Origin: a virus
DNA length: 41,190 nt
Reading direction: 5' to 3' (one strand)
IMG/VR virus record: IMGVR_UViG_3300001533_000361
Span: 1-41,190 of that record
Shown here: piece after piece, positions 3,612-29,437 of the stretch
Position numbering within the stretch: position 1 is the first letter of the stretch
How the letters are laid out: each line of letters opens with the position of its first letter
The notes under the pieces: generated by a model
Databases searched by the model: none
Told to the model about the DNA's origin: nothing
The model's input: the letters and a program-made list of their open reading frames with translations, nothing else
Position numbers and translations under genes: made by a program

Positions 3612-6600
3612 ATGAAACTGACGGCTCAACAACTGGCTAACGCTCAGCGCCTGAAAGAACAGTTTTTGGCTGCTGGGCTCAGCCCTGCGCTGACTTCTGC
3701 GTCTATTGGCAATATGTTCGCAGAGAGCGGACTTAACGTCAAAGCCTACAACCCTAACGACAAGGGTAAGCCGTCTGAGGGCCTGCTGCAATGGCGTGAC
3801 GACCGCCAGCGCAACCTGCACAGCTTCGCGGCTGACAGTGAACAATACTCCGACGAGCTTACCCGCCAAGCCGCGTTCTTCTTGCATGAGTTCAATCCGA
3901 ACGGCGCAGAACGAGCGTCCTATAACGCCTTGCAAGGTGTTGAAGACCCTCGCCAAGCTGGTGTAGCCTTGGCGCAGCGGATGATCCGCCCTGCTGCGGA
4001 GCACATTCCGGTGCGCGGCGACTACGCGGAGCAGATGCACCAAATTCTGTTCAACGGCCCTGACGCCGGTATCCAATTCGCTGGCGGACCTAGCGGTCAA
4101 TCCAGCACTGACATTGCTTTTGATCCGGTCAAACAAGCCTTCGGCCAGCAGGACAGCCGTGGGCAGGCCCCTAGCGAAATCATGGACATGATCCTGCGTA
4201 TGGGGCAGCTTGGTCAAACGGTTCCTGCCGCTTGTCCTCCGATGCCTAACCCGCTGAGTGAACAAGTACGCCCGCCGCAGCAGGATACTAGCCTGTGGAA
4301 CGCCTACATGGGCGACGGGCCTAAAATCGGCAATCCGCTGAGTGAACAAGCCCGCCCGCCGCAGCAGGACACTAGCCTGTGGAACGCCTATATGGGCGAC
4401 GGCCCGCAGATCGGCAACCCGCTCAGTGAACAAGCCCGCCCGCCGCAGCAGGATACGAGCCTTTGGCCCGCCTACATGGGCGACCAGTTTGGAGCTTCCC
4501 CTAATGAGGGGAAAGCGTCACTCGACGCTGAGGCTCTGATTGACGAAAATCTTCCTGCTGACGGCAACCGTAAGGCATCAACGGTACTCAATACCGGCTT
4601 CGCTGAGATGGCAGAAATGTCTGCCGGTTCGCTTGGTGTGCCGGTAGAGGACGCCCCTAGGAGCGTTAACGAGGTGGTAGCAGCCGCCGCGGACAAGTCG
4701 CCTGCGGCTACGCCGGAAGAAGAAGTGAAAAAGGGCAATCGCCGTCTGATCGCTGCCGACATGCTTCAAGCTCTTTCCACGGGGCTCGGGCAGATCGGCG
4801 CTGGTCAGGCTGTTGACCTGTCTGCTATCTTCCAGCGGCAGGCGGCTGTTCGCTCTGACATGCAGGTACAGCAACAGGCTGAGGCTGAGCGGCAAGCTGC
4901 CGCGCAAGAACGCCAAACTGCTATCGCCAACTTCCAAGCCAACGGGCAGCAAGGGCTCGCCGCGCTGGCTTCGACCGGCGAAGAAGGCTATAAGCAAGCC
5001 ATGCAAGCCGCTGGCTCTATCGCAGCGCAGCGCGCGAAAGACGGCGGGGCCGCGCCGCCGCCTACTCTCAAGAGCCTACCGTTTGACCAGCAGGTCGCGT
5101 ACTATCAGGACATGGGAGCCAGCCTACAGGCGGCGGAAGCCTACGCGCTTGACCCCAGCCTTGGCGGTAAGTTCTTGGAAAACATGGTAGGTACTGGTGA
5201 CAGCCCGCAGCCTGCGGAAGTTGCTACCCTGCTTGGCAACGCTATCAAATACCAAGACAGTCACCCCGCAGTGAAAGCTGCGGTCGAGCGCGTTCTGGTG
5301 AACCCTAACGACAAAGAGGCGTTCAGCAACCTGCAATCCACCATGAATGGAGTTTCCCCTAAAGAGGGGAATAGTGGCCCGCTGGACCTGTCGCCGGAAG
5401 ACATTGCGGCTATCCGAGAAGACGCGGTTAAGGAGGGCATGTCTCCTGCGCTCGCTGATATTATGGTCAAGAACCCTGACATGCTCAACGAGTATGTCAA
5501 CGGCTCCAACACTGCCTTGACCAAAGGTATCCAGAAGCGGTTCGAGACAGAGGCGGACGTAGGTGTGCGCGAAGCTGCCGCGACTGCTGCCAATAAGGAA
5601 AAGGCGGCGGTTCTGCAACAAGCTGGTGTATTCACTCCGACCGAGGCTCTTGTGTACAGCAGCGCAGGTGAAGAAGGCGTTAAGATGATGCAGGAGGACG
5701 AAAAAGCTAAACGCTCTGACTCCGCTGCGCAATCGCTGGCGCAGTCCATCGCGGCTGACGTTGATGACTTGGAAGTCAAGCAGATGCTGCTTGGCGTCAC
5801 GACGCAGGAGCAGTTGAAATCTGCACTAGACTACGCCAACTCGACCAATAAGGCGTTGCCTGATATGGTGCGGCAGTTCCAGTACGCTGAGAACAACCCG
5901 CAGTTTATGCAGTTCCTTACGCAGATGAAGCGGCTGGATACTGGCAACGAGCTTGTCGGCCCGCAGAAAGTGCTACTTGACACACAGATGGCAGGCTTCG
6001 CAGCGCGTTACGCTGAGATTGACGGGCAGCGAAACCTTATCACGTCGATGCGGACAATCAATAACTTGGTTACGAAGATTGACCCCGTTACCGGCAAGCT
6101 GGCGTATGATAGCGGCATGGTTACTGGCACGCTCGGCGCAGTGTCGCAGCGTGTCCTTAACGATCTATTCGGTGACGACGCTCCTGAGCTTGTTGACGAC
6201 TACTCGCTGTTTACTATGCGCGTCATGGAGCGGGACGCGGGGCAGTTCTTCGGTGACTTCCGCGCCGTTGGCTCCGGTTCATCGTCCGACATGGAAAGCA
6301 GGATGTTCTTGAAGGCTATGGCGGTGGCGTCTGACTCCCCGCTGCAAGCTGCTGGTGTTACGCAGCAGTTCATGCGGTATCAGCAACTCGCCAGTGCAGA
6401 GGTTGAAGCCGAACAACGCTGGTATCTCGACAACGCCAACAAGCCTGAGTTGCTGCTGGACAAGACGGCAATGAACAAGTATATCGACGACTCCGTTGCG
6501 TCTATGGGTGTTGAAATCTTCCCCGAAGTGGACTTCTCCGACCAGAAGAAGCTGGAAGCGGACTTCAAGTCGGGCAACATCACGGACAGCACTGTCGTCA

Positions 6601-16404: not shown

Positions 16405-17719
16405 GCACGGCTCTGTGCTCTTTTTCTTTTGTGAGTCTAATACGCTTGATTGCTGTGTCAACCGGCGTTTCACCCATGAGGAAATCGAGTGTGACTTGGT
16501 TTTGTTGTCCAAGGCGCTGCACCCTCTTGTAAAACTGTTCAATGACGGCAGGCGAATAGTGATCCTGCGCGATGATTACGTGCTGACAGACCTCTTGCAA
16601 GTTCCACGACACGCCCATTGCTCCCATCTGCCCGACCATTGCGTTAAACTCGCCAGCGTTGAAGCGGTCGCGCAGTTCCTCTTTCTTGTTGGCGGTCATC
16701 CCGCCCTTTACTCGCGCGACGTTCAAGCCTGCTTCCTTGAACATATCATAGTAGGCGTCACCTACAGGTGTATGCCAGTAGCCTATCAGCAGCGGACCAG
16801 CCAGCGAGCTATCAAGGACGTACTCCTTAGCGCCCTTCACCTTCGCCAGTGCTGCCGCGCGCCAGACTGCCTGCATGTCTGCGTCTTGCGCTTCCAGCTT
16901 GGCTTCAATCTGCGCATCTGTCAGCCCTACGAACAAGTCCCGCAGCATCCCTGCCATTGACTCCATCGTCGGGAAAAGTTCTCTTACCCTAATTGGGGGA
17001 AGTGACGTATTCTCCTGCCGCCGGATCGCGCCAATGTCTTCGTAGAGCATCTTGTGCAGGATAGGCAGGTTCTGCGACCGCACGACAGTCGGGCGCGGCT
17101 GCATCCGCGAGTTGAATTTCTTGACCTTGACGACACAGAAATTAAGCACAAAGGCTTCATAGCTGAGGCTGCGGTACTTGGCGAACACGTCTGGATAGAG
17201 GGCCACTAGCTGCCCCCACAGGTCATCGGCGTACCGAAAGATCGGGTTGCCGGACAGCGGCCAGACGTTATCAAACTTTTCCATCAGCCCCTTTTCGCCG
17301 TCATGGTTACGCCCGAAGATAGCAGCGTTACGCTTCGTGTCTTTACCGCGCGCGTTGTGCGCCTCGTCCAGTATCAGCGCGCCTTCGCTAAAGCGTCTAT
17401 AGAACATGGTCTGCATCATCGGGCTACCTACTACATCGTAGGTCGTGACCAGAATATCAGCCTTGCTAGCGGTTCCCCAATTAGACCCGGTAGCGATTGC
17501 CACGTCTGCGCCGAGCCACTCGGTTGTTACCTTCTGCCACATTTTCTGAGCAATAGGCGGGGCGATAATCAGCCCTTGCTTGTGACCGGCTTTCTTGAAC
17601 GCCTCTAGGGCGGTCAAGGTTTTTCCTGTTCCTGCCAAGGAATAGTTAGGCAGGTCGCCGCCTTCTGCCATTTTGGTTGAGTCTTCAACCTGCTCTGGCG
17701 TTAGAATAATCTTCGGCAT
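16388..17719 (-). CDS. SNF2/DEAD-like superfamily 2 helicase
   Basis: 443 aa. Walker A SLAGTGKT (27-34), DEAH box LILDEAHN (118-121), motif III-like PLSGNPI, and motif VI QFYKRVQRLGQQNQV near the C-terminus. This set matches SNF2-type SF2 ATPases of phage replication and recombination modules. A P18 copy in the linker between the two RecA-like lobes is read LPPIRV. The gene overlaps its neighbours on both sides, indicating a tight operon. Confidence 0.9.
   Translation of the reverse strand: MPKIILTPEQVEDSTKMAEGGDLPNYSLAGTGKTLTALEAFKKAGHKQGLIIAPPIAQKMWQKVTTEWLGADVAIATGSNWGTASKADILVTTYDVVGSPMMQTMFYRRFSEGALILDEAHNARGKDTKRNAAIFGRNHDGEKGLMEKFDNVWPLSGNPIFRYADDLWGQLVALYPDVFAKYRSLSYEAFVLNFCVVKVKKFNSRMQPRPTVVRSQNLPILHKMLYEDIGAIRRQENTSLPPIRVRELFPTMESMAGMLRDLFVGLTDAQIEAKLEAQDADMQAVWRAAALAKVKGAKEYVLDSSLAGPLLIGYWHTPVGDAYYDMFKEAGLNVARVKGGMTANKKEELRDRFNAGEFNAMVGQMGAMGVSWNLQEVCQHVIIAQDHYSPAVIEQFYKRVQRLGQQNQVTLDFLMGETPVDTAIKRIRLTKEKEHRAVLGDGN
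16984..17001. repeat. P18 palindrome copy 17
   Basis: TTACCCTAATTGGGGGAA inside the helicase gene, read LPPIRV on the minus strand. Confidence 0.85.
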
Positions 17720-26890: not shown

Positions 26891-27319
26891 ATGAGACAGA
26901 CCCGCCGCCGCCGCACTGCCGCCGCCGCGCCAGACGCCGCCCCGCAGCCCGCCAAGCCCGCCGCCGCCATAACTCCGCCGCCGCAGGACGTGCTGCCGCC
27001 TAGCCCGCCTCCTGCCGCCGCTGAGACCCTGCCCAAGCCCGCCGCCATTCCACCTCGGACATGGCAGGTGCTGCAAGAGGCTGGGGAGAAGGCTGCCGAA
27101 CGGTTGCGCGACCTGCTGGCATCCCAAGCCTTCGCCAAGATGAAGCCGACCGACCAAGCCCGCTTGATCGAATTGGCCCTGACCCGCGCCTATGGCGCAC
27201 CTGTCAGCCGCTCAATCGCGGTCACTGCCACCAGTGACAGTGCCGACGCTGTGGCTGCCGTGCTGGCCCGCATGGCGTCTGCCCCTCTCCCTGAGATGAC
27301 CCGCCGCAAGCCCGCCTGA
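26891..27319 (+). CDS. Putative terminase small subunit-like protein
   Basis: 142 aa with TAGGAG nine bases before ATG. The N-terminal third is Arg/Ala/Pro low complexity (RQTRRRRTAAAAPDAAP). The C-terminal part is helical, with KMKPTDQARLIELALTRAYGAP, a segment reminiscent of small proteins upstream of phage large terminases. Assignment rests mainly on position before TerL and beside a repeat array suitable for a packaging site. Its composition is far more GC-rich than the flanking control DNA. Could instead be an unrelated structural or regulatory protein. Confidence 0.5.
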   Translation: MRQTRRRRTAAAAPDAAPQPAKPAAAITPPPQDVLPPSPPPAAAETLPKPAAIPPRTWQVLQEAGEKAAERLRDLLASQAFAKMKPTDQARLIELALTRAYGAPVSRSIAVTATSDSADAVAAVLARMASAPLPEMTRRKPA

Positions 27320-27429
27320 AACCGACAAATGCCCGTTGGCGACCCCTCGGCTACCCCTATGCCCGAGACAGCCAGCGGGCGCGTAGGGTGCCTCCCACGC
27401 ACTCTCAGAGGCATGTGGCATATATGTCA

Positions 27430-27612
27430 CAGTTTAGCATACAATCACATGTTATAACCTAACGTCGAGAGTAGTTTAACATTAAACTATATCTCAATCA
27501 CATGGTTTAATACTGAACCATCTCGCCAAAGTAGTTGAACGATCAAACTACTTTGGCTTGAGATAGTTTAATGCTGAACAACCCACACAGAAAATGGTTG
27601 AGCGGTGAATGA
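27430..27612. repeat. Array of about six imperfect palindromes with near-31-bp period
   Basis: Left half-sites TRGTTKARY start at 27472, 27503, 27532, 27564 and 27595, i.e. steps of 31, 29, 32 and 31 bp. A weaker site starts at 27430 (42 bp before the first). The best site, TAGTTTAACATTAAACTA (27472-27489), is a perfect 8-2-8 palindrome. Others include TGGTTTAATACTGAACCA and TAGTTTAATGCTGAACAA. Three-turn spacing puts all sites on one DNA face, suggesting cooperative binding. Location suits a terminase packaging site or a replication origin. Confidence 0.8.
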
Positions 27613-27618
27613 CCCCCC

Positions 27619-27650
27619 GCCCCCGGGGCCTGACGGGGGCCGGTTTATTT
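27619..27650 (+). terminator. GC hairpin followed by T-rich tract
   Basis: GCCCCCG (27619-27625), eight-base loop, CGGGGGC (27634-27640), then CGG and TTTATTT. Possible terminator of the small gene or part of the packaging/origin site. Confidence 0.5.
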
Positions 27651-27671
27651 CGACCTGCCCCCGCGCTCGAC

Positions 27672-27991: not shown

Positions 27992-29437
27992 ATGGACCTA
28001 TCAACCCTGCTCCCGGCGCAACGTGTACTTGCCGAAGAAGTAATCTACAAATGCGCCGTGTCGCGCGAGTATTTCGTTCGTGAAGTCCTCGGCGTCAAAT
28101 TTATCGAGAAGTGGCAGCTAAAGGTTCTGCGCCAACTCGACAAAGGCGAGACAAAGATTAGCATCCGGTCCGGTCACGGCGTCGGTAAGACGACGCTATG
28201 TTCGTGGTTGGCGCTGCACTTCCTGTTGTTCCGCGACGATGTGAAAATCATTGTCACGTCGCCGTCTGCGAAACAGATGACGGACGGCCTGATCCCCGAA
28301 GTGCAGAAGTGGATCAAGCGACTGCCCGGCTGGATGCAGGACCAGCTTGATAGCACGTCAGAACGTGTGACGCGCAGCCCGAACAACGCCAATAACTTCA
28401 TCTCCTATCGTACTGCGCGGAAAGAGAACCCGGAAGCTCTTGCCGGTGTTCACGCCACGCATGTCATGATTATTGTCGATGAAGCATCAGGCGTTGACGA
28501 GGTAATCTACGAGACCGGGCAGGGCTCGCTTTCGACCGAAGGTGCTATTGCGGTGCTGATCGGGAACCCGACTAAGCCGACTGGCTTCTTCTTCAAGACG
28601 CACAATTCGCTGAAAGACCTTTGGTGGAATATGAAGGTCAGTTGCTTTGATAGCTCGCGGGTTGACGAAAGCTACATCGCTGGTCAGCGCCGGACCTACG
28701 GTGAGGACAGCCGCGAATGGAAAGTGCGTGTGCTAGGCGAGTTTCCTGATAGCGGGGCTAGCTCTGTCATTCCGCGGAGTTTCGTGGAAAGCGCAGTCGG
28801 GCGTGACATTGATATTATCCGCGACGAGATTTATTGGGGTGTCGATCCGGGCCGCGGCGGCGACCCTAGCGGCTTTGTGGAGCGGACGCCAAACGGCGTG
28901 ACCTTTGCGACTATGCTGCGCTATGACGACGTGATGCGGCTGGTTGGCTGGGTCAAGAGGCGGTGGGACGAAACAGCGCCTCATGCGCGGCCTAAGCATG
29001 TGTTCGTTGACAGCATCGGGCTAGGTGCTGGCGTGGCTGACCGCTTGCAGGAGCTTGGGCTGCCGGTCGTGCATGTGAATGTGTCGGAGTCTGCTTCCCT
29101 GAGTGATCGGTTTGTACGGCTACGGGCTGAAATCTGGTACGCTACCCGCACTTGGTTTGAGGGCATGAACGTCTGGATAGACCCCCAATTAGGGGAACTT
29201 GAGCGCCTGATTACAGAGCTTGTGACTATCGAGGAACGCGAGCGGTCTGACGGCAAGATTGACGTGGAAAGCAAGCGGGAAATGAAGACTCGCGGCGTCG
29301 GCTCGCCAAACTTGGCTGACGCGCTGGTGATGACCTTTGCCAAGGAAGGCGCTGTTGCGAACGGCTCTTTCCGCAGCGGGGGCTGGGGCAAAGTAGATAC
29401 GTCTTTGTACAGAGCGCCGGGGCTGCGGCGCAACTGA
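27992..29437 (+). CDS. terL: Terminase large subunit (packaging ATPase and nuclease)
   Basis: 481 aa, GAGG seven bases before ATG. ATPase: Walker A GHGVGKTT (61-68), Walker B VMIIVDEAS with Asp163/Glu164. RNase H-like nuclease: YWGVDPGRGGDPSG with Asp285, VFVDSIG with Asp340, SPNLADALV with Asp443. All catalytic positions are intact. It pumps DNA into proheads at the portal and cuts it. A P18 copy is read DPQLGE near 397-402, with CAA where the consensus would give TAA. Confidence 0.95.
   Translation: MDLSTLLPAQRVLAEEVIYKCAVSREYFVREVLGVKFIEKWQLKVLRQLDKGETKISIRSGHGVGKTTLCSWLALHFLLFRDDVKIIVTSPSAKQMTDGLIPEVQKWIKRLPGWMQDQLDSTSERVTRSPNNANNFISYRTARKENPEALAGVHATHVMIIVDEASGVDEVIYETGQGSLSTEGAIAVLIGNPTKPTGFFFKTHNSLKDLWWNMKVSCFDSSRVDESYIAGQRRTYGEDSREWKVRVLGEFPDSGASSVIPRSFVESAVGRDIDIIRDEIYWGVDPGRGGDPSGFVERTPNGVTFATMLRYDDVMRLVGWVKRRWDETAPHARPKHVFVDSIGLGAGVADRLQELGLPVVHVNVSESASLSDRFVRLRAEIWYATRTWFEGMNVWIDPQLGELERLITELVTIEERERSDGKIDVESKREMKTRGVGSPNLADALVMTFAKEGAVANGSFRSGGWGKVDTSLYRAPGLRRN
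29180..29197. repeat. P18 palindrome copy 34
   Basis: GACCCCCAATTAGGGGAA inside terL, read DPQLGE. Confidence 0.85.

Follow-up and report, generated by a model that had tools for sequence, protein, structure and literature searches.

A helically phased array of operator-like palindromes in phage genomes as a possible decoy for a host MarR-type repressor

Between a small gene and the gene for the terminase large subunit (terL), the virus record IMGVR_UViG_3300001533_000361 carries a row of evenly spaced palindromes, and the question is which protein binds them and to what end. The window considered here is the whole stretch of DNA analysed, 41,190 bp, and comprises the entire virus record. The original prediction took the array to be a candidate packaging site or replication origin, to be bound by an oligomer such as a small-terminase ring. 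Comparison with other phage and bacterial sequences instead points to a co-facial operator array for a host MarR-type repressor, which would mainly titrate that repressor as phage DNA accumulates. The probability of this reading is put at roughly 0.45.

The array and its genome setting

The window has a LUZ24-like structural module, and its major capsid protein and TerL match those of Sinorhizobium phage phiM5 and related phages at 45% and about 41%, respectively. Late genes run rightward, starting at the small gene and terL (Table 1), and replication genes run leftward, those for a DNA polymerase A, a Prim-Pol/AAA protein and a SNF2-type helicase among them. A DNA-similarity search of annotated phages gave no match to the window, and a scan with the single TerL protein gave no close relatives. 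An alignment-based TerL scan recovered closer ones. Related phages had been named as a place to look for the array, and it is present in the nearest relative (L008; TerL 65%), which has four palindrome copies in the same gap, and in L107, L117, L126 and L145, which have the array plus one or both neighbouring genes in common with the window. No array was found in phiM5 and the other TerL relatives tested. The major capsid protein of the window phage had no close match in 295 Rhodobacteraceae genomes; the phage presumably infects a Rhodobacteraceae-like host.

The five palindromes of the original prediction (sites 2 to 6) were confirmed at their positions, with steps of 31, 29, 32 and 31 bp, as was the weaker sixth site ahead of them (site 1). 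The consensus of the 18-bp palindrome is TAGTTYARYRYTRAACTA. Exact TRGTTKARY half-sites are concentrated in this stretch, which holds six of the seven found in the whole window. Scored with a weight matrix derived solely from other phages, sites 2, 3 and 5 exceeded the best site (21.5 bits) obtained when the whole window was simulated 200 times under a first-order Markov model, and none of these runs brought a pair of sites scoring above 8 bits to within 200 bp of each other. Because site 4 is an insertion variant and sites 1 and 6 are half-sites, the array consists of three strong sites, one variant and two weak sites. Site 4 is also the centre of a longer dyad (27525-27557), and its variant form with the central insertion also occurs in L008.

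Table 1. Features of the array region in the window (positions in bp of the window)
Feature	Position	Strand	Sequence	Remarks
Small gene ahead of terL	26891..27319	+		assigned as terS from position alone; lineage-conserved at 44-53% identity
Site 1	27430..27447	.		weak half-site with degenerate right half; 42 bp (four turns) before site 2; 3.5 bits
Site 2	27472..27489	.	TAGTTTAACATTAAACTA	complete match to host operator consensus; 32.6 bits
Site 3	27503..27520	.	TGGTTTAATACTGAACCA	24.2 bits
Site 4	27532..27550	.	TAGTTGAACGATCAAACTA	19-bp variant with 1-bp central insertion
Site 5	27564..27581	.	TAGTTTAATGCTGAACAA	25.1 bits
Site 6	27595..27612	.	TGGTTGAGCGGTGAATGA	weak; left half good, right half degenerate; 3.1 bits
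Element separate from the array	27642..27662	+	GGTTTATTTCGACCTGCCCCC	lineage consensus TTTTATTTCGACCACCCTCTGTG; follows C-tract
terL	27992..29437	+		first gene downstream of array; PHROG terminase large subunit, 1.4e-48

Other palindromes were also seen in the window. A lone operator-like stray, TGGTTGAGTCTTCAACCT (17674-17691; 7 bits), lies distant from the array, and a near-perfect CRP/FNR-like palindrome, TGTGGCATATATGTCACA, is found immediately upstream of it at 27414-27431. The palindrome TTCCCCTNNTNAGGGGAA, termed P18 in the original prediction, occurs with two or fewer mismatches at about 44 places in the window compared with 0.01 expected. Copies are located, for example, at 4496, 10003, 16208, 21122, 27714, 27910 and 36502, and many stand directly ahead of start codons on both strands.

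Arrays in other phages and the packaging and origin readings

A search pattern of two sites about three helical turns apart recovered 68 loci in viral contigs, against only 21 from bacterial and archaeal genomes totalling 257 Gb. The viral loci carry 2-6 palindrome copies and belong to at least four phage lineages, unrelated marine phages included, namely the window's lineage, HMO-2011-type podoviruses, CRP-6-like siphoviruses and a larger genome type. In the 24 records checked, strict sites form one cluster per genome and strays are rare. The original prediction had also proposed that the spacing keeps the sites on one face of the helix, and this geometry held up in 45 non-redundant arrays, in which the steps peak at 22, 29-33, 42 and 53 bp, equivalent to about 2, 3, 4 and 5 helical turns. 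A phase test on the same arrays, confined to steps outside the searched range, gave a Rayleigh p of ~1e-5. Roseobacter phage CRP-13, isolated on the Rhodobacteraceae strain FZCC0023, bears an array several kb from terS/terL, and none was found in the isolates CRP-1, CRP-345, CRP-603, CRP-3, CRP-6 and HMO-2011. Since CRP-1 has been reported on the host strain of CRP-13, the array is not essential in that host. Several HMO-2011-type genomes (L181, L182, L183, L185 and L179) carry other repeated palindromes in the homologous intergenic gap, including TTTGTGATCACAAA (2-4 copies, CRP phages) and ACACTTAAGTGT-like repeats, which are possibly further host-operator arrays.

Packaging, the first of the two roles originally proposed, draws on the position of the array. 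It does sit between a terS-like gene and terL. The identity of the small terminase is positional only, as the terS-like protein has no match in phages, PHROGs, Pfam or PDB and matches no family; its predicted structure was unusable (pLDDT 61). In phiM5, which is also LUZ24-like, the syntenic interval separating the small gene from terL carries annotated terminal repeats and has a C-tract and a TATWTCG...CACCC-like element in common with the window. Across the window's lineage, a C-tract and TTTTATTTCGACCACCCTCTGTG come after the array (27610-27662 in the window); they align with the right end of the direct terminal repeat of phiM5, and the element at 27642-27662, 30 bp downstream of the array, is a plausible candidate for a terminase cut or genome end. 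If the repeat extends as in phiM5, the array might, speculatively, lie inside the terminal repeat and so be present twice per virion. That the array itself is the pac or cosB site recognized by a small terminase is nevertheless very improbable. It accompanies unrelated TerS and TerL proteins, lies kilobases from the terminase genes in HMO-2011-type phages, and is absent from phiM5 and other TerL relatives, and the same palindrome serves as a chromosomal operator in bacterial promoters next to metabolic and MarR genes.

The origin reading takes the palindromes to be iterons or accessory sites of a replication origin. In eight of nine genomes the cumulative GC-skew minimum does coincide with the array or fall close to it, the palindromes are phased, and the region has a strong single-strand structure (z -5.9). 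However, the skew minimum of HMO-2011 falls in the same gap with no array, skew in these genomes follows transcription polarity, which confounds the coincidence, and the folding stems from the palindromes themselves. Related phages also lack the array, and this role is quite improbable. Overall, the array is probably neither a packaging site nor a replication origin in itself.

The chromosomal operator and its candidate repressor

The palindrome was found in 9 of 289 Alphaproteobacteria sampled and in 47 of 100 Rhodobacteraceae genomes, compared with 0 for a reversed control. Gene content and the hosts of Roseobacter phages agree in pointing to Rhodobacteraceae as the family of these 100 genomes. 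In 30 of 33 sampled loci the site lies -2 to 54 bp ahead of the start codon of a gene which, by Pfam, is pdhA (18 loci), malic enzyme (7), lpd (4) or an aceE-type E1 (1). The metabolic-gene copies in Rhodobacteraceae are all solitary, and the location of the operator within about 50 bp of the start codon suggests repression. Flank preferences, which lay outside the search pattern and were hence unconstrained, agree between host and phage sites, with A at position -2 at frequencies of 0.68 and 0.69, respectively, and no C at -1. The phage palindrome therefore appears to be the same operator as the chromosomal consensus TAGTTYARYRYTRAACTA, flanks included. Paired AGTTTAACGTTAAACT sites were also observed in Enterococcus/Vagococcus chromosomes (L162, L164 and L172), adjoining a gene for a LacI-type regulator or sugar-binding protein in L162 and L172. 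These pairs belong to a different system with a similar palindrome.

Elsewhere, in Alphaproteobacteria and Firmicutes, operators of this type occur in pairs near MarR genes whose recognition helix is of the TKGAMT type. Each of the six alphaproteobacterial nitroreductase loci that contain the palindrome also has an adjoining MarR gene, in the order palindrome (usually two copies 22 bp apart), nitroreductase and MarR, and the recognition helix is VTKGAMTNTL or VTKGAMTHTL in the five loci that extend that far. A MarR open reading frame lies within 1.2 kb in ten of the 21 chromosomal loci with paired sites, most with helices of the form TKG[AS][MI][TS]; these ten include SDR-MarR operons of Bacillaceae (YTKGAMTNIATKL), Natronincola and Acetobacterium. 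The MarR-family operators, twin palindromes ahead of nitroreductase-MarR or SDR-MarR operons, resemble the phage array in having the same 18-bp palindrome and paired copies at whole-turn spacing (22 bp in most alphaproteobacterial operons), and they are associated with TKGAMT-type MarR genes. They differ in number and setting: chromosomal sites occur once or twice, across a promoter next to the gene for the regulator, whereas the 2-6 copies in the phages are accompanied by neither a regulator gene nor any obvious promoter overlap. Of 100 Rhodobacteraceae genomes, 83 encode a MarR, nearly universal in the family, whose helix is [VL]T[KR]GAMTNTL, and the motif is present in 44 of these 83 and in 3 of the 17 genomes that lack this MarR (Fisher p=0.008, phylogeny not corrected). 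A host MarR-type repressor is accordingly the likely binder of the array, as far as sequence can tell, and in Rhodobacteraceae the TKGAMT-type MarR probably controls pdhA, lpd, malic enzyme and aceE. No Rhodobacteraceae MarR gene preceded by its own operator was found, and the candidate gene is not beside the pdh sites; because it lies away from these sites and its own promoter has no motif, the binder may be a different regulator with similar specificity. One genome (G346) has the motif and no MarR candidate.

Other host regulators have been considered. Gammaproteobacterial PdhR was set aside on account of its site. No published regulator of this specificity was found for the Rhodobacteraceae regulon of pdhA, malic enzyme, lpd and aceE. 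PhaR/AniA was rejected as the binder of the pdh operators because its motif is GC-centred (YGCRNYGCR), unlike the palindrome (PMC12542648). In R. sphaeroides, the LacI-type RSP_1663 has been predicted to regulate malic enzyme and PdhAB (PMC4344238), from which it follows that a second regulator of these genes may exist.

A protein encoded by the phages has also been weighed as the binder, one convergent on MarR specificity or diverged from it beyond recognition, which would serve either as a replication initiator or as a late switch. Arrays are characteristic of phages and occur once per genome at the early/late boundary or ahead of the terminase operon, as expected for such a protein. However, apart from DNA polymerase, the window's lineage has no protein family in common with most of the other lineages that carry arrays, a match to the MarR or HTH_3 families is not shared among them either, and the motif is identical to the chromosomal operator, flanks included. 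Searches of the array-bearing phages by Pfam and tblastn also found no MarR gene, and a phage-encoded binder is improbable. An operator or stoperator array for a prophage repressor, which would go with a cI-type repressor of the phage and with sites dispersed along its genome, is not supported: each genome has a single cluster, and no common HTH_3 or MarR gene was found.

Titration, promoter control and the biology of infection

If the host repressor is the binder, MarR dimers would occupy neighbouring sites on one face of the helix, and binding would probably be cooperative because the sites are spaced by whole helical turns. Replication of the phage would then multiply strong operators, whose number in a single phage genome is about equal to that in the host chromosome or higher (2-6 sites per phage versus 0-3 exact sites per Rhodobacteraceae genome). 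Given that the repressor binds and replication multiplies the copies, titration would follow almost automatically. The flux from pyruvate and malate into acetyl-CoA would thereby be derepressed, as would the adjoining late promoter, should that be under repression as well. The further proposal that a non-coding "sponge" in several unrelated lineages turns on the host's pyruvate dehydrogenase and malic enzyme in the course of infection is put forward tentatively, at less than even odds.

The main rival retains the same host MarR-type repressor and gives the array a role in cis, in which it would control phage promoters, those of the late operon in the window's and CRP-6-like lineages and early and/or late ones in HMO-2011-type phages. 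Control of this kind would tie the infection programme to the metabolic state of the host or, via self-titration, to phage copy number. Arrays occupy 27 tandem, 15 divergent and 0 convergent gaps, so that all lie in gaps which must hold promoters, and the lack of convergent-gap arrays favours a role in cis, which it fits at least as well as it fits titration. In addition, whole-turn spacing suggests an ordered nucleoprotein complex, and the chromosomal versions are promoter-proximal operators. Against this, the distance from array to next real gene varies among phages from <100 to ~780 bp, which favours titration, and no convincing promoter overlapping the array was found in the window. Control in cis is considered somewhat unlikely as the main role.

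Titration of the host repressor by the array would have precedents in kind. The datA locus of E. coli, which binds DnaA, and the incA iterons of P1 are titration loci, and resemble the proposed array in that a cluster of sites away from the regulated gene can lower the level of free DNA-binding protein. Their targets are initiators that start replication within the same replicon or cell cycle, whereas the target proposed here is a host metabolic repressor and the carrier is a lytic phage. LexA on CTX phage is an example of host-repressor control of a phage, in which, as here, a phage regulatory region has operators for a host transcription factor; the present case differs in the absence of a detected cI-type repressor, in a MarR-type metabolic regulator in place of the SOS repressor, and in a phased multi-copy array. 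Operator arrays with several copies, and phage operators for host repressors, are already known. No paper on this motif or on a phage decoy array for a host repressor was found among the open-access papers searched, and the occurrence in unrelated phages of host metabolic operators in phased arrays looks like a novel variation on these known kinds.

Auxiliary metabolic genes are the accepted route by which marine phages steer host metabolism. If the titration reading is true, the operator sponge would be a cis-acting counterpart of these genes, steering metabolism without any gene, and annotation based on genes would miss such arrays. The array reading further predicts the host genes that infection should induce and the phages that should induce them. 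By tying at least four phage lineages to a small and tight Rhodobacteraceae regulon, the motif aids both the prediction of hosts and the naming of the regulator.
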